Positions 1 through 17,571 of a stretch of 54,837 nucleotides of DNA are shown here, in pieces (the stretch's first letter is position 1; each line of letters opens with the position of its first letter). This stretch comes from an uncultured Clostridia bacterium (GTDB lineage: Bacteria; Bacillota; Clostridia; Lachnospirales; CAG-274), in contig CANQXR010000014.1 in the NCBI GenBank assembly GCA_947627855.1, forward strand, positions 1 through 54,837. Reading direction: 5' to 3'. The notes under the pieces were generated by a model that was given only the letters and a program-made list of their open reading frames with translations, had not been told where the DNA came from and searched no databases. A program made the translations under genes and the position numbers.

Positions 1-227
1 GTGGCTAAATCATTGATACCCTCTATTACTCTCGCTCCTGAGCATATCGGGCATTTCTCGCCCTTTGAACGAGCTTTAACGCTCGTTTCCCATTCGTGTC
101 CGCAAGCGCCTTTCCACCACACTCTTTTATTTGAACCGAAGGTTATCTTATCAGGCGTCAGCGGTAAATTCCTCTCTGACCATTCAGGAATTAGCTCCGG
201 GTGAACGCTTGCTAAACTGTTGCTCAT
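1..227 (-). CDS. Zinc-ribbon (DUF4379-like) protein, 5' part only
   Basis: The minus strand carries an open frame from an ATG at 225-227 that runs off the left edge, giving about 75 residues. It starts MSNSLASVHPELIPEW and contains the run W-W-K-x-x-C-G-H-E-W followed by a C-P-x-C pair. This is the hallmark of the 'probable zinc-ribbon domain' family (PF14311/DUF4379 type), which occurs in tandem copies in long proteins, often carried by plasmids, phages and integrative elements. A GAGGAAGGGG ribosome-binding site lies just upstream of the ATG. The rest of the protein lies outside the window, so its enzymatic part, if any, is unknown. The opposite-strand open frame here is a shadow. Confidence 0.7.
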   Translation of the reverse strand, partial: MSNSLASVHPELIPEWSERNLPLTPDKITFGSNKRVWWKGACGHEWETSVKARSKGEKCPICSGARVIEGINDLA

Positions 228-327
228 AGTATAACCACCCCTTCCTCTGTGATTATCCTCATTATATTGAGAAAAACAGGATTGGTGTAGTTTGCGATGT
301 AGTCCGAAAACTATGAGATATGAAAGA

Positions 328-359
328 AGCTCCTGAGAAGCAGTAACTTCTCAGGAGCT
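328..359 (-). terminator. Perfect 13-bp stem hairpin between lysS and the left-edge gene
   Basis: AGCTCCTGAGAAG (328-340) pairs perfectly with CTTCTCAGGAGCT (347-359) over a 6-nt loop. On the minus strand the stem is followed by a weak T-rich run (TTCTTTC). It would stop transcripts leaving lysS before the left-edge gene. Confidence 0.5.
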
Positions 360-466
360 GTGTGAAACTTAAAATTATGCGATTTTTTAGTCTCTGCACC
401 GTTTTTAGCACCGATTGGTGTAAATTTGGTGTAAAGAGGTAAATTTATTCGGTTTAGAAAGTCCCG

Positions 467-489
467 AAACCCGCATAAACACTGGGTTT
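467..489 (-). terminator. Weak hairpin directly after lysS
   Basis: On the minus strand, AAACCC and GGGTTT pair around an 11-nt loop about 10 bases after the lysS stop codon. The T run is short, so this is a weak terminator at best. The sequence 311-513 also has an open minus-strand frame with no start codon, discussed as a finding. Confidence 0.3.
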
Positions 490-498
490 TTTCGACTT

Positions 499-2001
499 TT
501 ACTTGTCAATAGGCTTCATTGTGGGGAAAAGGAGAACGTCACGTATGGTGGGGGCGTTTGTGAAGAGCATCACAAGGCGGTCGATGCCCATGCCCATTCC
601 TCCGGTGGGGGGCATACCGTATTCGAGGGCTGTGAGGAAGTCCTCGTCTATCATATTGGCTTCTTCATCACCTAAATTTCTCAGCTCCTCCTGGCGGAGA
701 AAACGTTGACGCTGGTCGATGGGGTCGTTCAGCTCAGAATATGCATTGGCAAATTCTCTTCCTACTATGAAAAGCTCGAAGCGTTCCACATAGCCCTCCT
801 TGTCGTATTTCTTTTTCGTAAGGGGAGAAATTTCGATAGGATGATCCATAAGGAAGGTGGGCTGAATAAGCTTTTCTTCAACAAATTCTTCAAAAAACAG
901 ATTCAGTATATCTCCCTTAAGGTGATGAGGCTCATATTCTATGTTGTGCTTTTTTGCCTCCTCACGGGCTTCCTCAAGAGTGTTTATATTGTCGAAGTCT
1001 ACGCCTGCGTATTTCTTTACTGCTTCGACCATAGTTATTCTTTCAAAGGGCTTTTCAAAGTCAAGCTCGCTGCCCTGATAGTTTATATGATAGGTTCCCG
1101 CTACTTTTTTACAGCATTCCTTTATTATACCCTCTGTTATGTCCATCATACCGTGATAATCTGTATATGCCTGATAAAGCTCCATAAGGGTGAATTCCGG
1201 ATTATGCTTCATATCCATACCCTCGTTGCGGAATACTCTGCCTATTTCATAAACACGCTCCATACCGCCTACGATAAGCCTTTTAAGGGGAAGTTCCAAG
1301 GCTATTCTCATATACATATCAATGTCGAGGGCATTGTGATGGGTTATGAAAGGACGGGCAGCCGCTCCGCCGGGTATTGTCTGGAGCATAGGGGTTTCAA
1401 CCTCAAGAAAGTCAAGGCTGTCAAGATATTCCCTTATTGTGGAAATGATTTTCGAGCGCCTCTTGAAGGTTTCCTTTGTTTCGGAATTTACGATAAGGTC
1501 AACATACCGCTGACGATAGCGGAGGTCTTTATTTGCAAGTCCGTGATATTTTTCGGGAAGTATCTGAAGGCTTTTTGAAAGCAGCGTGATATCTGAGGCA
1601 TGGACGGATATTTCGCCTGTTTTCGTTTTAAAGACAAAGCCTGTCACACTCACTATGTCGCCTATGTCTATAAGCTTTTTGAATATGTTGTTGTAAAACT
1701 CGGCGCCGCCTACGTCATCTCTGGTTATATAGCATTGTATGCTGCCATCTCTGTCCTGAACATTTATAAACGAAGCCTTTCCCATTACTCTTTTGCTCAT
1801 CAGTCTGCCTGCAATGGTTACTGTCTGATTTTCCATAGCTTCAAAATTGTCTTTTATTTCGGCGGAGTGGTTTGTGACCTCAGCCTTGACGATTCTGAAA
1901 GGATCCTGCCCCATGCTCTGGAGAGTGTCGAGCTTTTCACGTCTTATTCTCAACAGTTCATTAAGCTCGTCGGCTGTCTTTTCTGTGTTTACGTTTTCCA
2001 T
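499..2001 (-). CDS. lysS: Lysyl-tRNA synthetase (class II)
   Basis: This 500-residue protein matches the usual length of bacterial LysRS. It charges tRNA-Lys with lysine in the cytoplasm. An N-terminal OB-fold anticodon-binding domain (about 55-150, with [14 protein letters not shown]) is followed by the class II catalytic core. Class II motif 2 shows as [17 protein letters not shown] and motif 3 as [12 protein letters not shown] near the C-terminus. The ATG follows AAGGAG at a normal distance. It lies 12 nt downstream of greA on the same strand, a common Firmicute greA-lysS operon. Nothing is missing. Confidence 0.97.
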
Positions 2002-2013
2002 AATAACTGCTCC

Positions 2014-2490
2014 TTACAAAATTTCCAATATTTCTATTTCTATAAAGCCATCGGGGGTTTCAACGGAAACAATATCTCCCACCTGATGTCCAAGCAAGGC
2101 TCTGCCTATGGGCGATTCATTTGATATTTTGCCATTCATAGGGTCAGCCTCTGCCGAACCTACAATAGAATATACGTCCTCCTCCTCAAATTCCTTGTCA
2201 AAAATTCTGACCTTGTTTCCCAGATTTACAACGCCGGCAGCAAACTCACTTTCGTCTATGACCTGCGCCTTTTTAAGCATATTCTGAATCTGTGTTATTC
2301 TGGACTCTATCTCTGCCTGTTCTTCCTTTGCAGCGTCATACTCGGCATTTTCCGAAAGGTCGCCCTGAGCCCTTGCCTCTTTTATTTTTACGGCAACCTC
2401 CGCTCTTCTTACGACCTTAAGGTTCTGAAGCTCCTCTTCAAGCTTAACCTTACCTTCATGGGTTAAAATAATAGTTTTATCCGAAGCCAA
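2014..2490 (-). CDS. greA: Transcription elongation factor GreA
   Basis: GreA rescues backtracked RNA polymerase by stimulating transcript cleavage through the secondary channel. The protein has the N-terminal coiled coil ([16 protein letters not shown] through RITQIQNML) and the C-terminal globular domain ending in the typical [16 protein letters not shown]. An upstream in-frame ATG at 2499 sits directly against the AAGGAG ribosome-binding site, with no spacer. The TTG at 2490 has about 8 nt of spacing and gives exactly 158 residues, the usual GreA length, so I chose TTG. It is the first gene of the greA-lysS operon. Confidence 0.95.
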
Positions 2491-2629
2491 AGAAAACATC
2501 TCCTTTTTATATTCATATCAATATTTATTGTAAGAATTATATAGTAAAAATCCCTTATTGTCAAGCTTTTGAATGACCTGATATATGCGAAGTGCACCGA
2601 TGTTGACAGTAAATTTTTTCAGGACACAA

Positions 2630-2661
2630 CAAAGCCTCCCGTTTAAATGAGAGGCTTTGCG
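2630..2661 (-). terminator. Terminator downstream of the flavin reductase
   Basis: CAAAGCCTC and GAGGCTTTG form a 9-bp stem just after the flavin reductase stop codon on the minus strand. It is followed by a weak TTGTTG tract. It separates the flavin reductase from the greA promoter. Confidence 0.6.
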
Positions 2662-2670
2662 GTTATGATT

Positions 2671-3237
2671 TTATTTTTTTAATTCAAAGCCGTCCTTAAA
2701 GGCTTCTCCGACCCTGTCTGTAACCTTGTAATATCCGTGTGTATATGGGTCGAAAGCAATGGCATTTACAAGAGACATATTGATTTTTCCGTCTGTCATT
2801 ACACTTTCATCTGCCGTAATATTTGTAACCTTGCCTATTACGCCGCAGCCGTATTTGCCGTACTGATATTCTATGAATTCACATTCAAGACATATAGGAA
2901 ATTCATTTATAACCGGCGCATCAACAGTTTCCGCCTTGGTCGATGTAAGACCGCTGCGTGCAAATTTATCGGAAACATTGTTTCCCGATTCCACGCCGAA
3001 ATAGTCCGCTTCCGTTACATGGTCAGCATCGGCAATGCTTACTGTAAATGCACCCCTTGCCTTTATGTTTTTAACGGTTTTATGGCTTTCCGTCAGATTG
3101 AGGGCTACATTTCCTCTTTCCTGCATAGTGCCCCATGCGGCGTTCATTACATTGACGCTGCCGTCCTCGTTGTACGTTGCCACCATAAGAACCGGCATAG
3201 GGAATATACCCTCGGTTATATCAAGCTTTGTTCTCAT
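2671..3237 (-). CDS. Flavin reductase family protein (FMN-binding split barrel)
   Basis: The 188-residue product starts MRTKLDITEGIFPMPVLMV and continues with VNVMNAAWGTM, a typical opening of the flavin-reductase-like FMN-binding split-barrel family. Members bind FMN and act as NAD(P)H:flavin oxidoreductases or electron-transfer partners in the cytoplasm. Longer starts exist, but only the ATG at 3237 has a proper AGAGGT ribosome-binding site. The 5' leader contains the left 31-bp inverted repeat of the recombinase segment, followed by eight Ts on this strand. Its only good promoter (3316-3344) lies inside that segment, so its expression may depend on segment orientation. The exact substrate is unknown. 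Confidence 0.85.
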   Translation of the reverse strand: MRTKLDITEGIFPMPVLMVATYNEDGSVNVMNAAWGTMQERGNVALNLTESHKTVKNIKARGAFTVSIADADHVTEADYFGVESGNNVSDKFARSGLTSTKAETVDAPVINEFPICLECEFIEYQYGKYGCGVIGKVTNITADESVMTDGKINMSLVNAIAFDPYTHGYYKVTDRVGEAFKDGFELKK

Positions 3238-3264
3238 AAAAATACCTCTTTTCATTAAAAAAAA

Positions 3265-3295
3265 TTCGCAAAACAGAAACATTTTGCGAAAGATA
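3265..3295. repeat. Left 31-bp inverted repeat (IRL) of putative invertible segment
   Basis: This 31-bp sequence recurs exactly, in reverse complement, at 4633-4663. Each copy is also a hairpin: TTCGCAAAA pairs with TTTTGCGAA around CAGAAACA. The loop is not palindromic, so the two copies are truly inverted. Identity stops at both ends. On the minus strand this copy is followed by T8. Confidence 0.85.
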
Positions 3296-3312
3296 AATAT
3301 TTTGATGTTACT

Positions 3313-3344
3313 ATTATACTAACACAAAATATATTGGAAGTCAA
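3313..3344 (-). promoter_or_regulatory. Strong leftward promoter just inside the left inverted repeat
   Basis: On the minus strand, TTGACT (3339-3344) is followed after 17 nt by TAGTAT (3316-3321). An overlapping TATAAT lies at 3313-3318. It presently fires out of the segment through IRL into the flavin reductase. After inversion it would fire through the right repeat towards the adhesin operon. Confidence 0.7.
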
Positions 3345-3385
3345 TTGTTTTTAAAAGATTTTTTTATCATTTCAGATAACAAAAC

Positions 3386-3399
3386 TACGGATATCCGTA
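3386..3399. promoter_or_regulatory. 14-bp perfect palindrome, putative operator
   Basis: TACGGATATCCGTA is a perfect palindrome between the leftward promoter and the recombinase promoter. It could bind the recombinase as an accessory site or bind a repressor. It is followed by T8, so a weak terminator is possible, but it has no loop. Confidence 0.4.
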
Positions 3400-3405
3400 T
3401 TTTTT

Positions 3406-3438
3406 TTGACTTTTTTTATAAAAGGAGATGATTATTAT
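3406..3438 (+). promoter_or_regulatory. Possible promoter of the recombinase gene
   Basis: TTGACT at 3406-3411 is followed by an AT-rich stretch with TGATTA at 17-nt spacing and TATTAT at 21 nt. The -35 is good and the -10 poor. It would drive the recombinase 60-90 nt downstream. Confidence 0.35.
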
Positions 3439-3493
3439 TCTTTATTTTTTTGTTAAGCCGTATGAATTATGGTCAGATAGGAGGGGATAACTT

Positions 3494-4573
3494 ATGTCAC
3501 GCAGAGGAGAGAATATTTATAAACGCAAGGACGGACGATGGGAGGGGCGCATAGCCATCGAAAGAAAGGAGAACGGCAGACTCAGATATCGCTCTGTTTA
3601 TGCAAGAACATACGCTGATGTTAAATTCAAGCTGAAGAATTATATCGAAATACCACGAAAAACGGACTCCGATGTCTCCGATTGGATATACGATTATATA
3701 GTTTCACTGAAAGACAGCGTAAAACTCAGCACCTATTCATTATATATGAGGAGTTACAGAAAACACTTACTTCCTTATTTTAAGGGAGTAAAGCTCAGGG
3801 AGCTTACAAAGGGCAGCATTCAGGGTTTTGTGGATTCACGCAGAGATTTGTCGCCGTCTACGGTAAGGGGCTTATTCAATATTCTGAGAGGGGCTTTGAA
3901 AAAGGCTTATGAAAAGGGGCTTGTTGACGCCATATGGCTTGGAATTATGCTGCCGAAGAACAAAAGAAGGGTTACGGAGGTTTTCACAAAGCATGAGCAG
4001 GAGCTTATAGAGGACTGTATTGATACGGATAAATCGCCAAACGAAATAGGAATTTTAATATGCCTTTATACGGGGCTGAGAATAGGCGAGCTTTGCGGGC
4101 TTAAATGGGAGGATATTGATTTTGATATAGGTGTTCTTACAGTAAACAGGACTGTGCAGAGAATAAGCATAAACGGCAGGTCACAGCTTACGGAGATGAC
4201 GCCGAAAAGCGAGTATTCCCAAAGGAGAATACCCATACCATCATTCCTGCTTAAGGAGCTTGAAAGGCTCAGGGCAAACAGCAGAAGTGATTATGTTATC
4301 AGCTGTAATTCTCACATTATGGACCCAAGGACATATCAATATCAATTCAAAAGCTTTCTGAAAAAGGCGGGAGTCAGGGAAAACAACTTCCACAGTCTGC
4401 GCCACACCTTTTCGGTGAGAGCACTTGAGTTGGATTTTGACATAAAGACCCTGAGTGAAATTCTCGGACATTCAAACGCCGTCATAACACTGAAAACTTA
4501 TGCACATTCCCTTGACGAACACAAAAGGGCAAGCATGGAAAGACTGTCGTCATTAAGGTCGGATAATTCTTAA
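3494..4573 (+). CDS. Tyrosine recombinase, putative DNA invertase
   Basis: This 359-residue protein cuts and rejoins DNA through a 3'-phosphotyrosine. Residues 1-45 form an AP2-like arm-binding domain (GENIYKRKDGRWEGRI). Residues 55-150 are a SAM-like core-binding domain, and the rest is the catalytic domain. The catalytic set is complete: Arg in TGLRIGELCGLKW, His/Arg in HSLRHTF, His in ILGHS, and Tyr in the LKTYAH motif. The start follows GGAGGGG. It lies inside the 31-bp inverted repeats with no excisionase or phage gene nearby, so control of segment orientation is the simplest role. A solitary integrase of a lost element is the alternative. Confidence 0.88.
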   Translation: MSRRGENIYKRKDGRWEGRIAIERKENGRLRYRSVYARTYADVKFKLKNYIEIPRKTDSDVSDWIYDYIVSLKDSVKLSTYSLYMRSYRKHLLPYFKGVKLRELTKGSIQGFVDSRRDLSPSTVRGLFNILRGALKKAYEKGLVDAIWLGIMLPKNKRRVTEVFTKHEQELIEDCIDTDKSPNEIGILICLYTGLRIGELCGLKWEDIDFDIGVLTVNRTVQRISINGRSQLTEMTPKSEYSQRRIPIPSFLLKELERLRANSRSDYVISCNSHIMDPRTYQYQFKSFLKKAGVRENNFHSLRHTFSVRALELDFDIKTLSEILGHSNAVITLKTYAHSLDEHKRASMERLSSLRSDNS

Positions 4574-4942
4574 CGCCGTCAAAAAAATGGTAAGAATCTT
4601 TTATTTTCATATTAACAGTGCGACTTTCAATATATCTTTCGCAAAATGTTTCTGTTTTGCGAAAAGGACTGAGGCATCGTTATAAGTATGCCGAAAAAAA
4701 GAAATATTTATACATAAATAAGCCTGCAAAAAAAGGCTGAAACAAGGGGAAAGCGGCGTCTTTGGACATCGGGGGCTGCTGTTATCATAACATATGATAA
4801 ACCTTATGTCTAATAACCGAAATAGATGAAGCGGAAGGTGGTTTTTCGGATGGCTCGTTTCATCTATGAATTTAAAGAAAGGATAAATGGATAACCATCT
4901 GCTTTTACCGGTTATACACTTATTATAAGGGGTAAAGAGAAT
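4574..4942 (+). promoter_or_regulatory. Leader region upstream of the adhesin gene
   Basis: This 369-nt gap holds the right inverted repeat (4633-4663) and several small RNA structures, but no gene. An AGCC/GGCT hairpin lies near 4722-4738. TTATCATA and TATGATAA make a 3-nt-loop hairpin near 4790-4808. ATAGATGAA and TTCATCTAT bracket about 25 nt near 4830-4866. A weak promoter, TTGGAC then 17 nt then TCATAA, lies near 4762-4790. The long structured leader fits a regulated transcript. I compared it with the c-di-GMP riboswitch consensus and saw no match. Confidence 0.4.
4633..4663. repeat. Right 31-bp inverted repeat (IRR) of putative invertible segment
   Basis: Exact reverse complement of 3265-3295. 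On its outer (adhesin) side it is followed by AAGGACTG, not by a T run. A transcript crossing it towards the adhesin should therefore not terminate, unlike one crossing the left copy towards the flavin reductase. Confidence 0.85.
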
Positions 4943-7900
4943 ATGTCACTAAAAGATGGGGTCAGAAAAACAACAAAAATAAAACGGTACAAATTCTGGA
5001 AGCGTGCAGTAAGCTTTCTTGGCATGGCGGTAGTTTTTGTAACCACATATATGCTTATACTTCCGGCTATAACGCTTACTAAGCCTGCCTGCGGACTTGA
5101 GGAGCATATCCACACTGAGGAATGCTATTCGAGGGAGCTGGTTTGCAGTGAGGAGAAAGAAAGCCTTACACCTCCCGAATTCACCTGTACAGAAGCCTTA
5201 CACCAACACGAGAGCGGCTGTTATGACGAAGAGGGCAGGCTCGTTTGCGGTAAAGCGGACTACTTCATACATAAACATAATGATTCCTGCTTCTTTGACG
5301 GAGAGCTTGTCTGCCCCCTTGAAGAAACAGAGGAACATTCACATACAGACGACTGTTTTACGGAAGAAAAAATACTTGTCTGTGATATAGAAGAAACCGA
5401 AGGACACACCCACGATGACAGCTGTTATACAACTTATGAGGAGCTTGTATGTTCTGATGAGAGCGAAGAGCATTCCCATGACGAAAGCTGTTATGAAACA
5501 CACACGGAGCTTACCTGCGGCCTTGAGGAGCAGGAGGGTCACACTCATTCTGACGACTGCTATAAAACTGTCCTCAGACTGAACTGTGACAAACCACAGC
5601 TTCACACCCATGACGAGGGCTGTTATGACGAAAACGGCTCTCTTATATGTCCTCTGCCGGAAACTGAGGAGCATATCCACAGCGCGGACTGTATGACTTC
5701 AGATTCTCATATTCACACTGAGGACTGCTATAAAGAGGTTCTCGCCTGCGGACTTGAGGAGCATACCCATTCTGATGAATGCTATAAAAAAGAAAGTGAA
5801 GAACAGGGAGAGGGCGAAGATGGCGACGACACTATCCCCCTTGTTCCCGATGTGACAGTAAGCAGCAGCAGTATTTCTCCCGAAATACTCGCCGATAATC
5901 TCACAAATCCTGCCGACCTTGTGGATACCCTTATAGGACTTGCAGCTGAGGAAAATCCGGAGGAAAGCGCTCTCAGAGCCGAGGTAACTCCCCATGCAGA
6001 TATTCCTATGGAAATTTCCGGAGACGGAGCGCCGTCTTATGAAAATGACCTTGTGGTTGAAAAAATAACGGACAGCGACAGAAACGACCGCACATATGAC
6101 GAGCTTAAGAAGCAGGCATATTCCGCTCTGGGCTATGAAAGCGAGGAGGATTTTGACAATAGCTGTCCCGGATTTGAAATAATAGATATATATTATGAAA
6201 ATGCTTCGGCTTATCTGAATGAAAGCTCTGCCACTGTGGATCTTTTCTGCCGTATACCGTCTGAGGAGGGCAAAAGCAAGCTTCACATTCTTTCTCTCGG
6301 CGAAAACGGAGCGACTGAAATAACACCTACTGAGGTAGTGCGTGACGGCGATTATCTGAGCGAATATATATTTGAAACAGAAAACCTGAATTCCCCTGTG
6401 GCTTTGGCAGATGAGAGTGTATTTGAAGGCTATGTTTCACAGTTTTATATAGGCTCTCTTGTAAGCGGCGAAAATCCTATATCAAGCGGAACTATGCCCT
6501 TTGATGAAGTTGAGGGCGATGGCTATGACAAGAGTGCGGAAGATACGATTGTGCGTACCTTCGATGATGTCACATATACGCTCCATGTTGTGATGGCAAA
6601 CAGAATGGGTGAAGGAGCTTCTTCTCTTGACAGCGCCGCAATGATGGGTCACCCCCTTGTATTTACTGCCGAGCTTCCATATGATGTGACTGACGCAAAG
6701 TTTGACCTCAGCAAGTTCGCACAGTTTGACAATGATAAATGTCACATAGATTATTATAAGGGCGAACAGATTGCAGTCAGAGAAGAATATGACAGCGAAT
6801 CGGGCGGCTTCGTCAAAAGGAAAGTCATTGACGGAGATCCGGAGAATCTGGGAGCTAAAACAACAATAAATGAGCTTATAGACGAAAATACCCCTCATGG
6901 TGACAATCCTTATTCTACGGGTATTACAAAGCAGGTATTTACGGGAGAGTTTTCCGCTTATCCCGAAGGCTCCGTTATTATACCCGGTTCGGTAGAGCTT
7001 AAGCCTACTGTTTCCGTGCAGTCAGCAATTGGCATTACGCCGAATGGCGAGGGCAAAAAGGAGCTTAAACCGATATTTAATGTATATATAAAGGGCAATG
7101 ACGAAAACTATTCCGATTCCAATGCTACCAAGAAGGTTGATGTGACCAAAACAGCCGGAATAAAAAATGAAAATACCGGCGAATCGAAAAATGAGGAGGA
7201 CATTGCAAAGGAAGTAATAACCGTTACATCAGGCAAGTTTTACAGTATGAATATTGTGCAGAACGTAGCCACCAAGGAAATGGGCAACTTCAACTTTGAC
7301 GATGTTTCCGAAAATCACGGAAATAAGATAATCGGTGACGTGAAAGCAGAGCAGGAGGCTGTTTATGGCAAGCTTCTCGGCTATGGCGTATCTCTTCAGC
7401 TTAAAACAGCTGCGGGACATGGTATGAAGGGCGTAGAACTTCCTACGAAAGAAGCAAGCTTTGATTTTAATGTTGCGGCTTCTGAGGTAAACGAACCTTC
7501 AAAAAGTGCGTTGACAAACTCCGACCAACCTGTGTATACACCTGACGGAACGTCTGTTTCCTCCTCATATGCTCTTGATGAAGCTAAGTCCGAGGAAAAC
7601 CACAATGACGAGATAGCTCTCACAAACATCGGGGAAAAGGCTTCGGGACTTTCCGTAAGCGTAATAGAGGACGGCAGCACCCCCAAAACCCAAACCGCAG
7701 CAGAGGTGATCTCTCAGTGTCTTGGTCAGGGAGCGCAAAACGCAGCAGCACCCCTCACAAAGGCAGTCTACACCGCCCTCTCCCCCTCGGCTGAATATGA
7801 CATAATGCCTATAGCTATAGAGGGTCCTGACGATTTGGTACACGCTTATGTATATTTTCCGACTACTTCTACAAATAATCGAGTTACAGTTTTGAATCCT

Positions 7901-10900
7901 GAATCGGAATTAACTGCTGATAAATTAACTAAGAATTATATGAACGCAACTGATGGAAATATATTTTCAATGAGTGCTCCTGAAGGTGTGCACTATCAAG
8001 AAGACCATGATAGTATATCAGATAAAGATATTACCATACCGGACGTTGGGAAATATCAAGTGGATAGAGGAACTAGAACAGCTAATAACTATGGACACTT
8101 TATAATTACTTTTACTGTTCCTAGTGGAGACGGTGAAGGAACAGCTAAATTGTATTTAAATGTAAATAGTTTAGATAGTGAGGAAAGAGCTGTTATTCTG
8201 ACAGATAATAGTGAGGGTGAGCCAAAGACCCAGACTTTTACAAGCAGTACTACTGAAGGATATTTAGTTACATTTGACGGCTTGAAGCCGGGTCATACAT
8301 ATACTCTTGCTGATGATACGGAGAAAGGGTTGAGCGGTTTTACTGCTGTAGCCTTGGTTACTTATTCATCAAGCTCCGGCAGCGGCAGTTACGTTTCCGG
8401 CGATAATAAAAATACATGGGATTTCAGCGGCACACAAATGCCGGAAGAAGATGACAGAACCCTTGAGGGCGATGATAATCTGAATGGAATTGTGTTTGTG
8501 AAAGGAAGCGCAGGCGGAAGTTCTTACCTCAAAGCAGGAACAAATGACACATATTTAAGCCTTGCTGCTGATGATGGGCTGAAAATTCCCGTACCCACTA
8601 ATGGGAATGTCACAGGCGGAAAGCTGACTATAACAACGGCTAACGACAGTGAGGAAAATCTTACCTCAGATGATGGCGAGTTTACAGACGGCGTTTTAAC
8701 ATTTGAAACATCAGAGCTTGATGGTGGCTATATAACTGTTACTGCAAGAGATGTGGCGCAGATAACCAAAATAGAGTTAGCCTATGATTCATATGAAGAA
8801 GATAGCTATGGTATATATGACAACTCGGGAACATGGAGCTTTACGGAGGATATGCCCACAGTCAGCACATATTCTTTGAGCGTTGAACATAGCTTGGAGG
8901 GCAGTATATCATTTAATGGCACAAACGGCTCTTACTTCGGCAGTGAGGGACTTCATCTCAACAGCGGCGATTCCCTTGCAGTGCCTATCCCTGACACAGC
9001 CTCAGACGGCACTATAACCGTTACTTTTACAAGCGGCAGTGTTACAGTAGGGGGCGAAGCTGCGACAAGCGGAACAGCTATAGACTTTACAGCTCCTGCA
9101 AGCGGAATTTCCACATTCACAGGAATACCCTTTGAAGCCATAGCAGCAAGCATCACGCCTACAGACAACACTGTTACAATAAGTGCCACGGAAAATGCTG
9201 TTATAACAGAAATAAGGCTTACTTCAAATGCACCCGAAGAGGGTACATACGGCACCTTTACAAATAATGAAACAGGCAGATATTGGGAGTGGAACTTTAC
9301 AGAGGATATGCCGTCACCTTCGGAAGGAGATAGTGAAAAGCGGATTCCTCTTGGCGGAACAATAGAAAGTCATATTACCTATAACACGAGTGCTTCTGAG
9401 AGGGGCTATTACAGCAGTAATAAATATATCGTTCTTAAAGAAAACGATACCCTTACAATTGACCCGTCTGCACTTGGAAGTGACCTCACTTCAGCAAGTC
9501 TGACAGTAAGCTTTAATGAAGTCGATGGCGGCAAACTGAGTATCGGCAGCGATGGTTTGACAAACGACAGCGCACAGGGGCTGACGGTTAATGAGGGCAC
9601 TCTTAGTGAAGTGACTATTACCGCAGGAGCTGAAACTCAGATAACAGGCATAAAGCTTACCTATACAAGAAAGGGCGATGCAACAGAAGATCTTCAGAAT
9701 GATGGCAAGGGCTATGTATATATCGCCGATACAGAGGGCAATTCGCAGTGGACACCTCACTTCAGAAATATTGAAGAACACTACTATAACAGCAGTGAAA
9801 GGAAAAATCTTATAGATGACATATTTACCCTGAGTGATAATTTATCACCGACTGAAACTTCTGACAATGCTGATATTGAAGCTTTAGGCAAATTTACGGC
9901 TGAAAATTCTGCAAGAACCGGCACGCATACTCTTACTATTAAAGTACCTGAGGAATCTGCAACAGTAAAGAGTGCTCAATTTTACATTCGTGCCATAGGT
10001 GCAAGCAGTCAGAGCGTAATGCTTAAACTGGTCGATGTGACAGATGGCTTAGAGGGCACAGCTCCTCAGGCGACAAGCTCTAAAATAAGCAGCTCCTACA
10101 GCAATACGATGGTATTTTCGGGGCTTGTGCCCGGTCACAGCTATGAGCTGACGGCTGTGACAACAAGCACAGGAGGTCAGACAAGCTTTGGATTTTCATT
10201 CCTTGCCCTTGTGACCTCTTCTGATGAGGATACCCCCTCAATGACGGCTCCACAGGCAAAGGTATACAACCCCGTCCTCTGGGACTACAGTCAGAATGTC
10301 AGCGGAACCATTTACGGAAAATGGCACCGCAATATGAACTGGGAAGAGGTAGGGGAGAATACAAACATAGCAAAACAGGCAGCCCCCTTTAATTCGGGCA
10401 CATATACAGGAGGAACAGACAGTCAGGAAAATCCTCTTGCAATAGCCAATAATGTAAACACAGGAACAGGAGAGTACGAGGAATATTACGGCGGAAACTG
10501 GAATGTCGATGATAGTCAGAAGATTACCACTGCGGAAAAAGTGATTGATTCAAGCAAAGGTAATTATGGCAGCAACACCTATCACGTAACCGTAAGCGGC
10601 TATAAATTTGACTTTGACAACTGGCACTTCCCCACAAATTATGCCGGCTCTACACAGGGAAATACTTCCTTAAGCGACAAAGGCATGGGCGGCAATGTCA
10701 ACTTCTTCTCATCGGGATATTTTCAGGTATTCGTGCCTTTCCCCGAGAACAATGTTATAGACAATGCTGCGGATAATTCCACAGTAAATTCAAGTACAAG
10801 CGGCTCAAATGCTGATTATCAGAGCAGATTCAATGTTACAGCTTCACTCAGCAATTTTAAGGTGGGCGACAGCGATGTAATTAATATAGGAGACGAGCTT

Positions 10901-13900
10901 AGCTCAGATACTGATGACAGCGGCGGCTCGCCAAACATTGACGGCGTAACCGACAACAGCGACATAAGAGACTTGGTTGTAGGAAACATACAGACCATGA
11001 ATGCCATCAAGACAAGATTTAATTCTGAAGTGGACGATGAAAAGAATTTTGACTTTGAAACCAACAACTATCCCGATGGCTCATACTATATAGCCAATGA
11101 CGGACTTAACGGAGATTCCTCGGGCGCTTGCTGGGGCACAATAGGTCAGGAGGTAGATTTGTGGGGCTCAATTCTATTAAGACCTGCGTCAAGCTATTCT
11201 CTCGGAGCGGCAAATGTCCTTGTCCTCTTTGACTCAGCAGCCTTTGAGTTAGACGGTACGCCTCAGCCCGGCTCAATAATTAAGAGCCTTGTAGATCAAG
11301 CGGCGGATCAGGGTGCTGCATATAAAATGCTCTATGTCTTTGATAATAAAAATAAGGGCGGCTATGACTCTACAGACTCCACTAATCCCGAAGAAACAGG
11401 AAAAACCTATAACAGAATGATTTCTGCGGATCAGGAGGATCTGTATTACTCAACAAGTCAGAAAGTGTCGGGTATGACCTGCGTGGGCGTGCTTATGGAG
11501 GTTAGGAATGTTGAGATTCCGAAGAATACAAATGTATCTGTAAGAATACCTGTAAAGGTAAAGGCTGACGCCAAAGTCGGAAGTGTATATTATATGCACA
11601 CATCGGCATGGGCTTGGACATATGACGAGGACTTCGGAGAACATCAGGCGGCAAACGGCATAAGCTGGGAAAGCAATGACGCAAGCTTATATGACGGTGT
11701 AAACCCCGGATCGGCAGAAAATAATGTTCAGACCAATGACGCGGCTATTGTGCGTACTGTGACAGGAAACGGACAAACAAAGAATGTAATTGCTTTCAAC
11801 AGAAACTATGGTATTGCAAAGCCCGAAACCTGTACAAAGACAGAATATGACGGCAATGTCATAACGAAGAATCAGGGCGACTACATCAACGGTATGAGTT
11901 TTCTTGTTACGGGATATTCCGCAAAGGTGGAGGTTACTGATGAGCAAAGAAAGGACGGCGCAGCGGTCGGGGGTATGTACAGTACATACAGCCCCAACTC
12001 ACCTATACCCTACATTTTACATGGTATAAAAGCGGAAGTCCCGGAAGGTTCTTCAAGCATAGGAGATGATACCAACCTTACAATAGACCTGCTTTCAGGC
12101 TTTGAAGGCGCAGGAACAGACAATTATATGCTGTTGTATGAAGGAAACGAAGCCGGCGACAGCGGCGTTCAGATAACCATAGGTGATAAAACCTATTATG
12201 TGGACGAAAGCGGAGAGACTATCAATATCAAGGATACTGACGGAACCGAACGCACCATAAAGGTCAGCATTGAAAGATATGGTTTGGGAGGTGAGCAGGA
12301 AGATTCGCCGGACGGAGCAAGAAAGATAATAGGTAAAATCAGCCTTGAGGGCGTGCCCATAGGCGTAGAGCTTGAGGACATAAAGCTTTCCGTTGTCGTA
12401 AACAGCAATATCATCAACGGTGACAGAGCGATACTTACGGCAAATATATACGGCGAGGGCGACCTAAGACCTCTCTACAATTCTGCAGGGGGCAGCACTA
12501 CTGTATATTCCGGCGGCTTCAACAATACAAACAGCGACATAGTGCAGATAGCAACTACCACAAGTTCGTCTTATCCCAAGTTTGTAAGGGGTACGAGAGA
12601 CGACACTGTAAAGCAGGAAAAGGCAAGCTTTGAAATGATGCCGAACGGCTCCATAGAGTACATCATAAGAGTGGAGAATCTCGGGTCATCGAGCGCAGTA
12701 CAGAATCTGTATATATACGATGTTCTGCCGAAAAGCACATTTGCAGGCGGCGATGTCAGGCTGAAGCTTAAGAGTGTGCAGATAAGAACTGTTGACCCCG
12801 ACACAAATGGTCAGCCGGACGAAAGCAGTACAAACGCATTCAGATATCCTGACGCCAAAATCTACTTAAGCAGCAGCCCTGATGCGGAGGCTGTCAAAGC
12901 GGAATGGAGACAATATACAGAGGATAATAATCCGAGCAGTGGTTCCTTTAGCCCTGTTGGAGATGATTATATAATCGATGGCGATGGCGAGGACGGAACC
13001 AACGGAGAAGGTACAGTTACAAGTCCTATTACAATAGGCGATGGCAATTTAGACGGCAGTGCGACTTCACCGGCTGAGCAGACTTACGAATTCCGTGATG
13101 ATAATAATTATACTGCTTTGTTTGCTTGCATAGGTTCGGATACGTCAAATCCTGCGATAAGAGAGGGTAGGATTCTGCAGTTTATAATCACTGTGCAGCC
13201 CATGTTTGACGAGGACGGCGACGGAGGTTATGAAGAGGCAAAGGAAAGCCTGTTTTCCAACACAGGAACCATAATAAGAGGTTCAAATCCTATAGAAACA
13301 AGTACAGCCGAAGCGGCATATGTATCAAGGCACATTTCCGGCGTTGTATGGCTTGACGCCAACCAGGACGGCGTAAGAGCCGAGGAAAGTATAGGCTCGG
13401 CAGAGGAGAGACTGGAGGGTGTCAGGGTGACATTGTTCAGTGACAACGGCGCAGAAGCTGCCCAAAGATATACGGTGGCGAAAGACGTTTTTGGCAATTC
13501 CCTTGAGAAAATATCGACTGATGAACACGGCGTATACAGCTTCGACAATCTGCCGAAGGGGGATTATATAGTTGCCTTTGATTATGACGGAGGAAATGAG
13601 GTCAGCGCATATCAGAACATAGGCTCCGAAAACTCAAACAATGACGGTGTAAAGATATATGGCAGCGACTATAACAGCGCAGAGCCGACCGCACAGAAGC
13701 TTGACAGAGAGCTTGACAGCTTCCTGTCGGGAGAGGGCTATGAATACGCCATAAAGTACAGTACGGACAGCGACAGCATAGGTCTTGCATCGAAGGAAGA
13801 TATATACAATGCGTATAACGGCACTGCGACAGTCGGTATGGCGGGCAATGTAGAAAACCTTGCTCAGAATGTAACAAACCTCGATTTGGGACTTGACGAG

Positions 13901-14026
13901 AACAGATATTCACTGCCGGAAACAGGCGGCTTTGACTACAGACTGCTGCAGATGGCAGGAGGACTGTGCTTTGCTCTTGCAGGAATTGTACTTTGTGTCA
14001 GAAGACGCAGACATTTTATGAAATGA
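4943..14026 (+). CDS. Giant LPETG-anchored surface adhesin, likely pilus tip
   Basis: This 3027-residue protein has a hydrophobic export segment at 22-45 (VFVTTYMLILPAITL). Residues 50-282 hold about eleven HxHxxxC repeats, most continuing with a Cys about 9-12 residues later, which look metal-binding. Residues about 1157-1577 are three tandem beta-rich repeats, each starting with W-[DSN]-F then MP and ending ITxIxL. A pair of related modules with G-L-x-P-G-H-x-Y lie at about 1046-1143 and 1657-1760. A DUF11-like stretch (IEYIIRVENLGSS) lies near 2570. An SdrD-B/Cna-B-like module (GVVWLDANQDGVR) lies near 2800. LPETGG is near 2991, followed by a membrane helix and RRRR. It heads the pilus operon, so a tip adhesin is inferred. 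Its ligand is unknown. Confidence 0.85.
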   Translation: MSLKDGVRKTTKIKRYKFWKRAVSFLGMAVVFVTTYMLILPAITLTKPACGLEEHIHTEECYSRELVCSEEKESLTPPEFTCTEALHQHESGCYDEEGRLVCGKADYFIHKHNDSCFFDGELVCPLEETEEHSHTDDCFTEEKILVCDIEETEGHTHDDSCYTTYEELVCSDESEEHSHDESCYETHTELTCGLEEQEGHTHSDDCYKTVLRLNCDKPQLHTHDEGCYDENGSLICPLPETEEHIHSADCMTSDSHIHTEDCYKEVLACGLEEHTHSDECYKKESEEQGEGEDGDDTIPLVPDVTVSSSSISPEILADNLTNPADLVDTLIGLAAEENPEESALRAEVTPHADIPMEISGDGAPSYENDLVVEKITDSDRNDRTYDELKKQAYSALGYESEEDFDNSCPGFEIIDIYYENASAYLNESSATVDLFCRIPSEEGKSKLHILSLGENGATEITPTEVVRDGDYLSEYIFETENLNSPVALADESVFEGYVSQFYIGSLVSGENPISSGTMPFDEVEGDGYDKSAEDTIVRTFDDVTYTLHVVMANRMGEGASSLDSAAMMGHPLVFTAELPYDVTDAKFDLSKFAQFDNDKCHIDYYKGEQIAVREEYDSESGGFVKRKVIDGDPENLGAKTTINELIDENTPHGDNPYSTGITKQVFTGEFSAYPEGSVIIPGSVELKPTVSVQSAIGITPNGEGKKELKPIFNVYIKGNDENYSDSNATKKVDVTKTAGIKNENTGESKNEEDIAKEVITVTSGKFYSMNIVQNVATKEMGNFNFDDVSENHGNKIIGDVKAEQEAVYGKLLGYGVSLQLKTAAGHGMKGVELPTKEASFDFNVAASEVNEPSKSALTNSDQPVYTPDGTSVSSSYALDEAKSEENHNDEIALTNIGEKASGLSVSVIEDGSTPKTQTAAEVISQCLGQGAQNAAAPLTKAVYTALSPSAEYDIMPIAIEGPDDLVHAYVYFPTTSTNNRVTVLNPESELTADKLTKNYMNATDGNIFSMSAPEGVHYQEDHDSISDKDITIPDVGKYQVDRGTRTANNYGHFIITFTVPSGDGEGTAKLYLNVNSLDSEERAVILTDNSEGEPKTQTFTSSTTEGYLVTFDGLKPGHTYTLADDTEKGLSGFTAVALVTYSSSSGSGSYVSGDNKNTWDFSGTQMPEEDDRTLEGDDNLNGIVFVKGSAGGSSYLKAGTNDTYLSLAADDGLKIPVPTNGNVTGGKLTITTANDSEENLTSDDGEFTDGVLTFETSELDGGYITVTARDVAQITKIELAYDSYEEDSYGIYDNSGTWSFTEDMPTVSTYSLSVEHSLEGSISFNGTNGSYFGSEGLHLNSGDSLAVPIPDTASDGTITVTFTSGSVTVGGEAATSGTAIDFTAPASGISTFTGIPFEAIAASITPTDNTVTISATENAVITEIRLTSNAPEEGTYGTFTNNETGRYWEWNFTEDMPSPSEGDSEKRIPLGGTIESHITYNTSASERGYYSSNKYIVLKENDTLTIDPSALGSDLTSASLTVSFNEVDGGKLSIGSDGLTNDSAQGLTVNEGTLSEVTITAGAETQITGIKLTYTRKGDATEDLQNDGKGYVYIADTEGNSQWTPHFRNIEEHYYNSSERKNLIDDIFTLSDNLSPTETSDNADIEALGKFTAENSARTGTHTLTIKVPEESATVKSAQFYIRAIGASSQSVMLKLVDVTDGLEGTAPQATSSKISSSYSNTMVFSGLVPGHSYELTAVTTSTGGQTSFGFSFLALVTSSDEDTPSMTAPQAKVYNPVLWDYSQNVSGTIYGKWHRNMNWEEVGENTNIAKQAAPFNSGTYTGGTDSQENPLAIANNVNTGTGEYEEYYGGNWNVDDSQKITTAEKVIDSSKGNYGSNTYHVTVSGYKFDFDNWHFPTNYAGSTQGNTSLSDKGMGGNVNFFSSGYFQVFVPFPENNVIDNAADNSTVNSSTSGSNADYQSRFNVTASLSNFKVGDSDVINIGDELSSDTDDSGGSPNIDGVTDNSDIRDLVVGNIQTMNAIKTRFNSEVDDEKNFDFETNNYPDGSYYIANDGLNGDSSGACWGTIGQEVDLWGSILLRPASSYSLGAANVLVLFDSAAFELDGTPQPGSIIKSLVDQAADQGAAYKMLYVFDNKNKGGYDSTDSTNPEETGKTYNRMISADQEDLYYSTSQKVSGMTCVGVLMEVRNVEIPKNTNVSVRIPVKVKADAKVGSVYYMHTSAWAWTYDEDFGEHQAANGISWESNDASLYDGVNPGSAENNVQTNDAAIVRTVTGNGQTKNVIAFNRNYGIAKPETCTKTEYDGNVITKNQGDYINGMSFLVTGYSAKVEVTDEQRKDGAAVGGMYSTYSPNSPIPYILHGIKAEVPEGSSSIGDDTNLTIDLLSGFEGAGTDNYMLLYEGNEAGDSGVQITIGDKTYYVDESGETINIKDTDGTERTIKVSIERYGLGGEQEDSPDGARKIIGKISLEGVPIGVELEDIKLSVVVNSNIINGDRAILTANIYGEGDLRPLYNSAGGSTTVYSGGFNNTNSDIVQIATTTSSSYPKFVRGTRDDTVKQEKASFEMMPNGSIEYIIRVENLGSSSAVQNLYIYDVLPKSTFAGGDVRLKLKSVQIRTVDPDTNGQPDESSTNAFRYPDAKIYLSSSPDAEAVKAEWRQYTEDNNPSSGSFSPVGDDYIIDGDGEDGTNGEGTVTSPITIGDGNLDGSATSPAEQTYEFRDDNNYTALFACIGSDTSNPAIREGRILQFIITVQPMFDEDGDGGYEEAKESLFSNTGTIIRGSNPIETSTAEAAYVSRHISGVVWLDANQDGVRAEESIGSAEERLEGVRVTLFSDNGAEAAQRYTVAKDVFGNSLEKISTDEHGVYSFDNLPKGDYIVAFDYDGGNEVSAYQNIGSENSNNDGVKIYGSDYNSAEPTAQKLDRELDSFLSGEGYEYAIKYSTDSDSIGLASKEDIYNAYNGTATVGMAGNVENLAQNVTNLDLGLDENRYSLPETGGFDYRLLQMAGGLCFALAGIVLCVRRRRHFMK

Positions 14027-14852
14027 TAGCTTAAAGTCGGGAAAGGAACGGCGCAGAACCGCTCCTCTCCCATGGCTCTGAATTTATGCACAACGTGGAT
14101 GACTGTCTTTAAGAGATTGTGCATTATAATAGCGGAATTGATATCCATACGGTTTGCGGGCTTATTATTGACGGAATACAGCGACCTATCCTAAACCGTA
14201 TTCCTCAATCAACTGTATGGATAGTGTGTGGACGGAAAAGACATAAGACAGTCGGGAAGGGATTCTGAGGGAAATCAATAGGTAATTTATGCCGATTTTA
14301 TGCCGATTGACGGACAAAAGCCGGTTTTGTAAAGGCGGCTCCAAGGGTCAGACGCTTGGGGTTTTGCAGGTTTTTGTCTGCCTGTATGGCAATATCGGTT
14401 TTAAATTTAATTCCGGCGGAGGTTTTCGGCTTATGTTTGGGAATTTTTGCAGGAATATATGGTCATTTATCCGTGACCTAAAATAAAGGATAACCGTATT
14501 TTATGACGGCTTGTCCGCACTCCTTTCACAAAACAGCGGCAGATGTTTTCGGGAGGGGATTTGCGAGCGGAGCGTGGCTCCGAAAAGCCCTGTAAAGGAA
14601 TGTTTTCTGATTTGTTCTTTTGCTGTTGGCAAGGAGAAAAAACAGTTGGCACAGCCTTTGAGGGCAATGTAACCGTAGGAGAAAAACCCGAAAAGCGTAA
14701 GCGCAGGAGGGCTTTTCCAACAGCTCTTTGAAAAAAAGAGAGTAAAAAGTAAACGGCGTATGGAAAAACCAATCTTAAATCAGTCAAAAAAACGCAGACT
14801 GAAGGCTTTAGCTTATCATACGCTTGAATCAACATACGAAAGGGGATTTTTT
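14027..14852 (+). promoter_or_regulatory. 826-nt structured intergenic region / pilin leader
   Basis: I see no credible gene here; small open frames lack ribosome-binding sites and family resemblance. The region is rich in pairing sequences. ATGCACAA/TTGTGCAT occur at 14086-14093 and 14117-14124, next to a TATAAT at 14125. Overlapping helices fill 14142-14223. CCAAG/CTTGG lie near 14340, CGGAGC/GCTCCG near 14565-14580, and a long-range GCTGTTGG/CCAACAGC pair encloses about 100 nt near 14622-14727. The duplicate TTATGCCGATT occurs twice near 14287. It probably acts as a promoter plus a structured leader of the pilin gene. Confidence 0.45.
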
Positions 14853-16478
14853 ATGAAGAAATTATCCAAAATTTTAAGCATTGTGACTGCACTTGCTCTG
14901 GTAATTATGTCAATAAACGTAGTCGCAGTAAACGCCGCAACTATAACGATTAACGGAAGTGAGGACACATTTAAAGCATATCAGATATTCTCAAGCAGTG
15001 AGGATGATGTTCTTGCAGACGAAGATAATGGCGGCTATATAGCAGGTAACTTGGCTTTTGCAACAGGACTTACAGAACATATGGAGGCTTTTATTCAGGC
15101 GTTGCTTGACGGTGGAGTAACAGGTCTTGATGCTTCTAGTTACGCATCATATACAGCACAGGATGTAGCTGATGCTATTGAAAATGCTGTAACATCAGGT
15201 GATATGGCAGATAATTCATCTAAAGCTGCTGCATTGGCAAGAAGTCTTGCTGATTTCTTTGAGAGTGAGGGAATTAGTGAAACTGGAACTTCTGAGCCCG
15301 GCAGTGATTCGAGTGTATTTGATGATCTTCCTGTAGGTTATTATGTTATAGTAAGTACTACTGCTGCCGAATCTAACATACAGCCTGTTATGCTTCAGGT
15401 GTTGGGTGGCTCAAATAATGAAATTGAAGCAAAAGGCGATGTTACTTCGATTGATAAGGCGATAGCCGCAGATTCTGCTGACAAGACATTCAGAGCAGGC
15501 GAAGAAGTACCATTTGAACTTACTATCACAATACCTGAAAATGTACAGCTTTATGAGGAATATAACTTAACAATTACCGATACACCTGAAAACTTAACTT
15601 TGGGCAGTGATGGTCCTCTTGCTATTACAGTAACAGGTTACAAAAAATCTGCTCCTGCAGTAGGTGAGCCTATAGAAAATACCGGCAGCGAATATTTTAG
15701 CGCAAATGTTGCAAGTAATGTTTTAACAATTACTAATGGCGATTCCTTTACTCCTGACTTTGCGAAAGATTATGAAAAAATTGTGATTTCGTATACTGCC
15801 ACAACAAATGCAGATATCACACACGGAAATGTAGGACATAACGATGTGACCTTGACATATTCAAACAATCCGAATGATTCTACACAAACTGCCACAGATA
15901 CTGCTACAGTAAATGTTTACAGTGTAGGTCTTCAGATTGATAAGGTAGACGATGATACTCAGCCTCTTGACGGAGCTGACTTTACACTTTCATATTGGAA
16001 TCCTGAAAAACTCGGCGGAGCTGGCTGGGAAGATGGTGTTACTGTAACTCCTACAGGTTCAGGTGGTAGTGCTTCTGCTGACCGATTCACATTTGACGGA
16101 TTAAGTGAGGGTTGGTATAAACTCGAAGAAAGTGAAACACCCGCTGGTTATAATAAATGGGCTGCTGAACTTTTACATATTGAAACAACAGTAGACCCGG
16201 CATCGGGCATAACAGCTTATACTATAACAGCTTATAACGATTATACAGATTTTGCAGGTAGTTTAGTTCCCGGTAGTATGACCCAAGATGATGTATTGAC
16301 ATTTAGCGATGATTACACAAGTACGGGTCTGGCAACAGCTCAGATTATGAACAACAAGGGTACATCACTTCCCGAAACCGGTGGTATGGGTACTAAGATA
16401 TTCTATACTCTCGGCGGAATATTTGTTGTAGGTGCAGCTTTACTTCTTGTAGTAAAGAGAAGAATGGCAACAGAGTAA
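14853..16478 (+). CDS. Isopeptide-forming major pilin (FimA/SpaA type)
   Basis: The 541-residue precursor has a Sec signal peptide (1-28, cleavage about after VNA), pilin D2-type and Cna-B domains, and a C-terminal LPETGG near 506 with membrane helix and basic tail. The terminal domain has the E-box YKLEESETPAGYN, whose Glu promotes Lys-Asn isopeptide bonds. A lysine in EAKGDVTSIDKAI is a candidate for the inter-subunit pilin bond. Sortase C joins it into the shaft covalently on the cell surface. The ATG at 14853 follows AAAGGGG; an in-frame upstream start at 14760 lacks one. Codon choice is visibly more AT-rich than in the sortase genes, as in fast-diversifying pilins. Confidence 0.92.
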   Translation: MKKLSKILSIVTALALVIMSINVVAVNAATITINGSEDTFKAYQIFSSSEDDVLADEDNGGYIAGNLAFATGLTEHMEAFIQALLDGGVTGLDASSYASYTAQDVADAIENAVTSGDMADNSSKAAALARSLADFFESEGISETGTSEPGSDSSVFDDLPVGYYVIVSTTAAESNIQPVMLQVLGGSNNEIEAKGDVTSIDKAIAADSADKTFRAGEEVPFELTITIPENVQLYEEYNLTITDTPENLTLGSDGPLAITVTGYKKSAPAVGEPIENTGSEYFSANVASNVLTITNGDSFTPDFAKDYEKIVISYTATTNADITHGNVGHNDVTLTYSNNPNDSTQTATDTATVNVYSVGLQIDKVDDDTQPLDGADFTLSYWNPEKLGGAGWEDGVTVTPTGSGGSASADRFTFDGLSEGWYKLEESETPAGYNKWAAELLHIETTVDPASGITAYTITAYNDYTDFAGSLVPGSMTQDDVLTFSDDYTSTGLATAQIMNNKGTSLPETGGMGTKIFYTLGGIFVVGAALLLVVKRRMATE

Positions 16479-16722: not shown

Positions 16723-17571
16723 TTGAAGGGCAAGGCAAAAATCAGTAAAAGCACTATTGTTTTGTTTATTATTTTTTTCGTGGGAATGTTTCTGCTGTTA
16801 TATCCATCGGCCGCCGATTATTGGAATAAGTTCCATCAGTCGAGAGCCATAGCCTACTATGACGAGAAGGCGGCAAAGCTGAGCCAATCGGAAAAGGACG
16901 CAATAATTCAGCAGGCAAGAGATTATAACAAGGATATGCTGAAAAGAAAATTTCCATGGTCTATGAGCGATGAGGAAAGGGAGAGATATTACAACACCCT
17001 TGACATAAGCGGCACAGGCATAATGGGCTATATTTCGGTTCCGGCGGCTGACATAAAGCTGCCTATATATCACGGCACTTCTGAGCAGGTTCTGCAAAAG
17101 GCTTCGGGGCACGTAGAGGCTTCGTCCTTTCCCGTAGGGGGCGAAAGTGTTCACGCCGTTATCTCGGGACACAGAGGGCTGCCATCGGCAAGGCTTTTTA
17201 CAGACATAGCGTCTCTTGTGGAAGGGGATAAGTTTCAGATAACCATACTCGGACAGAAGTTCAGCTATGAGGTAGACAAAATATCCATTGTAGTGCCGGA
17301 GGATATGTCAGAGCTTAAGGTGGAGGAAGGGCAGGACTATGTTACGCTTGTCACCTGTACGCCTTATGCGGTCAACTCTCACAGGCTTCTGGTGAGGGGA
17401 CACAGAATAAGCAATCTTGCATATGACGCCGGAGGACTTGAAGCGGAGGCCACAGTAATCGATGCGGTTGTTGTTGCTCCTGTTATTGCCGTTCCTATTT
17501 TGCTCATACTGCTGATTTATTTGATTTATAAAACAGGAAAAAAGAAAAGAATAAAACGAGGGAGGAAGTAA
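16723..17571 (+). CDS. Class C sortase (pilin polymerase)
   Basis: This 282-residue membrane transpeptidase has an N-terminal helix (about 10-30), an extracytoplasmic catalytic domain and a C-terminal helix (about 240-265) with a basic tail, the two-helix layout of class C. The catalytic triad is His150 in SGHRG, Cys212 in TLVTCTPY and Arg225 in HRLLVRGHR. The FPW segment near 77-79 sits where the class C lid lies, although the usual lid DPF/DPW is not exact. It starts with TTG at 16723 after GGGAGAG. It follows the major pilin and is followed at 1 nt by the minor pilin, so it most likely polymerises the shaft. Confidence 0.92.
   Translation: MKGKAKISKSTIVLFIIFFVGMFLLLYPSAADYWNKFHQSRAIAYYDEKAAKLSQSEKDAIIQQARDYNKDMLKRKFPWSMSDEERERYYNTLDISGTGIMGYISVPAADIKLPIYHGTSEQVLQKASGHVEASSFPVGGESVHAVISGHRGLPSARLFTDIASLVEGDKFQITILGQKFSYEVDKISIVVPEDMSELKVEEGQDYVTLVTCTPYAVNSHRLLVRGHRISNLAYDAGGLEAEATVIDAVVVAPVIAVPILLILLIYLIYKTGKKKRIKRGRK

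Follow-up and report, generated by a model that had tools for sequence, protein, structure and literature searches.

Positions 3265-4663 of the window (the whole 54,837-nt stretch of clostridial DNA analysed here) very probably form a self-contained promoter cassette, predicted from its sequence to invert and likely to have the adjoining pilus operon as its target. The segment is predicted to flip because its inverted repeats enclose a recombinase gene together with an outward promoter-like sequence. Its own tyrosine recombinase would likely cut and rejoin both inverted palindromic sites. Two regions flank the recombinase gene: the U region, from the left repeat to the recombinase start (3296-3493, 198 nt), and the D region, from the recombinase stop to the right repeat (4574-4632, 59 nt). 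A gene reading away from the cassette would be ON when it lies beside U, and OFF when it lies beside D. Action of the recombinase on these sites, inversion in cells, and expression following orientation are the steps that we infer.

The two exact 31-bp inverted copies around 1.4 kb, on which the original prediction was built, are borne out. The left copy occupies 3265-3295 (+ strand) and the right copy 4633-4663 (- strand), extending to 34 nt if one mismatch is allowed. Each copy is itself palindromic, a detail absent from that prediction, and reads TTCGCAAAA-CAGAAACA-TTTTGCGAA, i.e., a 9-nt arm, an 8-nt spacer and a 9-nt arm (cores 3265-3290 and 4638-4663, with the same spacer in both). Crossover sites of tyrosine recombinases have this form, with palindromic arms flanking a short spacer. 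Within positions 1-12000 no other inverted repeat comes close: the runners-up are an imperfect 33-nt palindrome (73%) within the segment itself and, outside it, a 24-nt pair (79%). The 26-nt core has no further copy in the 2.62-Mb genome at up to three mismatches (reversed-pattern control: 0), and no match in the viral contigs in which it was sought. A search for RNA families in 2400-5200 returned none.

The only long ORF kept between the repeats encodes a tyrosine recombinase of 359 residues (3494-4573, + strand), complete and the sole gene of the segment as had been claimed. It matches Phage_integrase (PF00589) at 2.1e-26, as well as N-terminal SAM-like domains, its N-terminal part being presumably AP2-like. 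Residues R196, K238, H300, R303, H326, and Y336, which we take to be the catalytic set, are invariant in an alignment of 21 sequences (that of the window and 20 relatives); domain and conserved R/K/HxxR/H/Y residues together place the enzyme among the tyrosine recombinases. The domain search gives only tyrosine-recombinase domains and thus no serine invertase of the Hin type. The term "Hin-like" used originally therefore applies only to the position of the gene inside the segment, Hin being a serine recombinase and this enzyme a tyrosine one. Nor does the protein belong to the FimB/FimE-type invertases, as the NCBIfam tyrosine-type DNA invertase models reach 21.1 and 18.9 bits against cut-offs of 221 and 222. 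For the segment itself, an ICE or phage integrase module does not fit either, the sites being inverted rather than direct and the 1.4 kb holding one gene. The nearest solved relative by sequence, over the catalytic part, is the "Int protein" of PDB 6emy, 6emz, and 6en0 (E ~1e-15), presumably the Tn1549-type integrase. That integrase serves a conjugative element, whereas the inverted sites of the window enclose one gene.

The outward promoter-like site, TTGACT-17-TAGTAT with a TG before the second hexamer, lies 20 nt inside the left repeat (3316-3344, - strand) and is recognised by consensus only. It scores 9 of 12 in the consensus scan (9.5 on the scale of the family scan), and 11 promoter-like sites were counted in 2500-5400 against 7.3 in shuffles. 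A "strong outward promoter" had been announced; site and direction are present, and "strong" is generous since the score is 9 of 12. The site is currently directed at a flavin reductase gene, and a computed inversion moves it to 4584, directed at the adhesin ATG at 4943, which bears out both directions claimed for it. The segment has the sequence features of an inverton, namely inverted repeats around a promoter (by consensus only) beside a drivable gene. A sequence scan also picked out TACGGATATCCGTA, a palindrome that with the T8 after it resembles a terminator and that lies between the left repeat and the recombinase gene (3386-3407, + strand). Elsewhere in the window, a perfect-consensus promoter precedes greA (2536-2564, - strand).

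To the right of the cassette, the genes described as a giant adhesin/pilus operon are confirmed as such by domain models. The first, and predicted target, is a 3027-residue LPXTG adhesin with an SdrD_B domain (4943-14026, + strand), likely the pilus tip protein. It is followed on the same strand by an LPXTG pilin with SpaA and isopeptide (TIGR04226) domains (14760-16478; SpaH/EbpB major-pilin model below its cut-off), a class C (pilus) sortase (16723-17571; model above cut-off), a second pilin-like protein (17573-18799; weak SpaH/EbpB match, below cut-off), and a second sortase-family protein recognised by a domain model (18777-19394). With TIGR04226, LPXTG, and class C sortase models all above cut-off, this is a sortase-assembled pilus operon. 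The 279-nt leader running from the right repeat to the adhesin (4664-4942, + strand) gave zero promoter-like or terminator-like sites on the + strand in the scan. After inversion the promoter would lie ~0.36 kb upstream of the adhesin, and no terminator-like signal was detected in the intervening DNA. In the assembly the pilus is predicted to be OFF, since U faces the flavin reductase and D the pilus operon.

On the left side, the flavin reductase-like gene (PF01613; 2671-3237, scanned as 2671-3234, - strand) lies 27 nt from the left repeat. A T8 run just outside this repeat (3257-3264, - strand; sequence scan) forms with the repeat hairpin (-9.8 kcal/mol) a terminator-like signal towards the gene, standing between it and the promoter-like site. 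This - strand hairpin of left repeat and A8 (as read on the forward strand) is a further detail not noted before. Hairpin and T8 would stay on the flavin reductase side in either orientation, so that the gene is probably shielded and no true partner of the switch. The gene occurs in 5/9 genomes of the genus (own included), and the DNA upstream of it differs in all four same-genus relatives read. In the nearest of these, G007, DNA identity is 88% and the alignment ends at window position 3258, 6 nt before the repeat; we read the DNA upstream of its flavin reductase gene as a promoter-like stretch and a divergent regulator-like ORF. Because hairpin and T8 intervene, the upstream DNA of the relatives differs, and the scan gave no + strand signals in the leader, the pilus operon is likely the target of the cassette and the flavin reductase probably a bystander behind the terminator-like hairpin. 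The pairing of a redox enzyme with a pilus, which had been thought unusual, is hence probably incidental, while the logic of an invertible promoter aimed at the pilus operon is supported as a reading of the sequence.

The arrangement, first described as unusual, is no one-off and recurs across Clostridia. Homologues of the recombinase at E <=1e-30 occur in 20/61 genomes (own included), many of them likewise enclosed by palindromic inverted repeats; more distant homologues (e.g., L018-L022, L031, L032, and L034-L036) are not enclosed. In the scan of species genomes the best 80 loci were taken, with 81 integrase ORFs, some loci being copies of each other (L114/L116, and L170/L171/L172). Counting an ORF as enclosed when inverted repeats scoring >=17 surround it, 61 of the 81 integrase ORFs are enclosed, against 1/158 control ORFs of 300-450 residues in the same loci. 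The other 20 lack an enclosing repeat at threshold 17, six of them reaching a contig end, and none of the 20 has a repeat pair beside, rather than around, the recombinase. A class-wide search found the family in 67/391 genomes at E <=1e-60. There, 22 of the 30 loci fetched are enclosed (at least six of the 30 overlap the earlier loci), and among 16 isolate loci taken, nine were recognised by script, six of these being enclosed. Of the cultured strains, Schaedlerella arabinosiphila DSM 106076 has three enclosed loci among four evaluated, with a fifth (L183) falling short of threshold 17, and Oscillibacter valericigenes Sjm18-20 (L324, L125) also carries an enclosed cassette. The top named relatives are Clostridia MAGs, several of them from gut samples, which makes the host of the window probably a gut clostridium. 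The layout also recurs, with median lengths of 188 nt for U and 67 nt for D over 86 family rows, and the window shares the palindromic inverted sites, the identical spacers, and the outward promoter at U only.

The crossover sites of the family were compared in 80 site pairs (the 86 rows minus three duplicates and three with long repeats). The spacer is the same in both copies for 79 of the 80 pairs, a match rate that is partly biased because the repeat finder requires an exact 8-nt seed and so favours matching centres; the arms differ somewhere in 59. Spacer length is 7 nt in 77 pairs, 6 nt in two, and 8 nt in the window. Mismatch rates between copies are 0.002 for the spacer, 0.056 for the outer arm, and 0.16 for the inner arm, the inner arms thus mismatching almost three times as often as the outer ones. 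Strand exchange needs identity over the exchanged stretch. Among cassettes the spacers are diverse, with 77 distinct ones in the 80 pairs, a figure that, unlike the match rate, is free of the seed bias. With the three duplicates dropped, 56 of 83 cassettes have an outward promoter score >=10.5 at the U end, where shuffles predict 1.2, and 2/83 have such a score towards the recombinase (0.6 expected). With the bar lowered to the window's own score of 9.5, 75 cassettes qualify outward (8.9 expected) and 10 inward (7.2 expected), and across the 83 cassettes no inward promoter is conspicuous. None of their D regions reaches an outward score of 10. The expected state follows from the outward promoter being enriched at U and absent at D: a gene beside U is predicted ON, a gene beside D OFF. 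A T-run outside the U end was considered as a general insulator and rejected, there being no consistent excess over D ends: at least six T of nine occur outside 14/60 U and 5/60 D ends in the two largest groups, and 1/20 and 1/20 in the others.

The main rival to an active switch, as ranked here, is a locked or nearly locked relic, which once inverted and is now fixed, its recombinase gene directed towards the target and its promoter no longer of consequence for the pilus; it is unlikely, though it deserves to be weighed against the orientations seen. A comparison of orientation in relatives, suggested with the original prediction, gives a divided picture. No read or assembly came up with the window's own segment inverted. 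Of 44 pairs of homologous neighbours, 39 adjoin matching ends of their cassettes, in agreement with such a relic, and five adjoin opposite ends. Only one of the five (L096/L100) is clean; the other four involve the sugar-transferase-like genes that L080 has at both ends, or doubtful ORFs. Across all loci at >=80% identity, a flank 80% identical between L170 and L190 meets opposite cassette ends. L082 and L084 also show opposite ends, with a left flank 93.5% identical; their segments are only 73% identical with different sites, and these cassettes are thus paralogues. When the 80 genome loci were compared at >=75% identity, no pair combined like flanks with opposite orientation at the cassette; L135 and L159 have reversed DNA in common, which in L159 lies over 5 kb away from the cassette. 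In Enterococcus raffinosus, all four records holding a cassette have it in one orientation, again as a relic would, and a fifth record has the flank alone. Where both sides are seen and exactly one has an outward gene, D faces this gene in 28 rows and U in 10 (duplicates included), so that assemblies are mostly in the predicted OFF state, as the window is. We read this as a switch strongly biased to OFF.

The missing strong promoter towards the recombinase would also suit a locked relic, and locking or decay does occur, since L190 has one recognisable site (at the left one, 10 of 21 positions match at best) and a relative of the recombinase in G005 carries two stop codons. Against it, both sites of the window are perfect, its recombinase is intact, and the outward promoter has been kept in the family. 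The sizes of contigs point the same way. In a test on the best 120 of 2546 listed homologue matches and the best 120 of 554 control matches, with queries and one contig-less row dropped, the longest contig exceeds the gene length by 200-400 nt, the size of a bare cassette, for 27/119 homologues and 5/118 control integrases (Fisher p 4e-5). Within short contigs only, the counts are 27/51 and 5/29 (p 0.002). These cassette-sized contigs suggest that both orientations are present in the samples, assemblies presumably breaking at the cassette because the two coexist, and they might also stem from identical cassettes at several places. Contig ends at the cassette itself, in 7/69 loci against 2.6 expected, are suggestive only; 11 of the 80 loci were left out of this count (isolates, duplicates, and the MAG loci L139 and L168, for which no reason is given), while a few isolates were kept.

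The cassettes adjoin genes of many kinds, as seen from Pfam scans of 19 neighbours chosen from the 86 rows. The predicted target position is held by EssC of type VII secretion (TIGR03928, 1230 bits for a cut-off of 778), and elsewhere by a TadZ-like protein, a non-ribosomal peptide synthetase, or the nucleotidyltransferase of an exopolysaccharide-like locus. BspA-type leucine-rich-repeat proteins, CheW, LytTR regulators, and an SLH-domain M4 peptidase are also found there. In the window's own genome, a stretch of at least 18.2 kb occurs on contig C1 as two identical copies, inverted relative to each other, with a family cassette beside an EssC gene (L072/L073). In L079, L080, and L311, the cassette lies between two exopolysaccharide-like gene copies with repeats of hundreds of bases, an arrangement that looks as if it toggled between two operons; from their ORFs, we read the neighbours in L079 and L080 as sugar-transferase-like genes. 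Enterococcus raffinosus megaplasmids (L315-L317) have a distant cassette before an accessory Sec (SecA2) operon. Near-identical stretches from Butyricicoccus, Blautia, and Agathobaculum (L170-L172) have one cassette between an XRE-type regulator and erm(B), and in L186 (2232-3581) a TnpB-like gene, below its NCBIfam cut-off, adjoins the D end. Several short inverted repeats lie near a distant integrase, 31-32% identical to that of the window, in the IMG/VR contigs L216 (3265-4077), L217 (5885-6942), and L221 (4331-4655). These related viral contigs hold stretches of about 290-330 nt in opposite orientation, as in a DNA shuffling region.

Such a variety of contexts, some near other recombinase-like genes, could also reflect a small mobile element, the repeats being its ends and the recombinase relocating the 1.4-kb unit instead of flipping it. 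The almost identical site that bounds cassettes in differing contexts (L108 and L300), and the stop of flanking-gene homology 6 nt before the window repeat, would agree with this. Such relocation is nevertheless very improbable: from inverted sites with matching spacers, a tyrosine recombinase yields inversion, not excision, and an outward promoter at one fixed end is needless for a bare mobile unit. Least probable of all is a fixed regulator, with the protein acting as a repressor bound to the palindromes, or with these serving as terminator hairpins, and no recombination in either case; the left copy with its T8 does score as a terminator, but spacers that match within nearly every cassette yet differ among cassettes are needless for a binding site or a hairpin, and the residues taken as catalytic are invariant.

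Several known systems come close to the self-flipping promoter cassette proposed here. The Hin/H segment of Salmonella contains, within the inverting DNA, the gene of a recombinase (Hin, a serine recombinase) and an outward promoter; gene and promoter are likewise inside in the window, with a tyrosine recombinase in place of Hin. The fimS element, of 314 bp, is too short for a recombinase gene. As in the window, FimB/FimE acting on fimS are tyrosine recombinases flipping the promoter of an adhesive organelle (PMC9993118). Hin/H is cited as an example in PMC5903667, which also describes, in Providencia stuartii, a recombinase ORF enclosed in a putative invertible segment close to a fimbrial locus. 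The principle thus has a precedent (PMC5903667). The Providencia segment is 844 bp long, has 14-bp imperfect repeats, and is a single case in that paper, the passage concerned being silent on the type of recombinase (PMC5903667); the window, in contrast, has 1.4 kb, exact 31-bp palindromic sites, and a family recurrent in Clostridia. In Clostridioides difficile, the tyrosine recombinase RecV acts on invertible upstream segments of 154-230 bp and is shared by some, not all, of the segments (PMC5903667), whereas family cassettes have each their own enzyme and mostly their own spacer. Inverton group 139 of gut Clostridia has short inverted repeats and is likewise linked to a tyrosine recombinase, of invertase group 35; in the two examples given, the repeats are ~205-230 bp apart (PMC11892184), which leaves no room for a recombinase gene, whereas in the window the gene is inside. 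No earlier description of the cassette family was found in the open-access literature, to which the search was confined, subscription papers and preprints being outside its scope. At least one earlier survey filtered out any invertible region containing or overlapping a coding sequence (PMC8748976), and a filter of this type would hide the cassette class because its invertible DNA holds a gene.

It is slightly more likely than not that Clostridia, and some enterococci, possess a class of portable, self-flipping promoters, each a 1.4-kb cassette in which two palindromic sites bound a single tyrosine recombinase and a single outward promoter. Such cassettes would be set before genes for pili, type VII secretion, exopolysaccharide, Tad pili, non-ribosomal peptide synthesis, chemotaxis, and leucine-rich-repeat surface proteins. 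Since nearly every copy has a private spacer, several cassettes in one genome could flip independently. If so, current counts would understate the extent of phase variation in gut Clostridia, as surveys discarding gene-containing invertible DNA would overlook the class. Every cassette would then be a genetically tractable switch that works independently through a site of its own, and the diversity of spacers would offer a natural set of recombinase-site pairs for studies of specificity.
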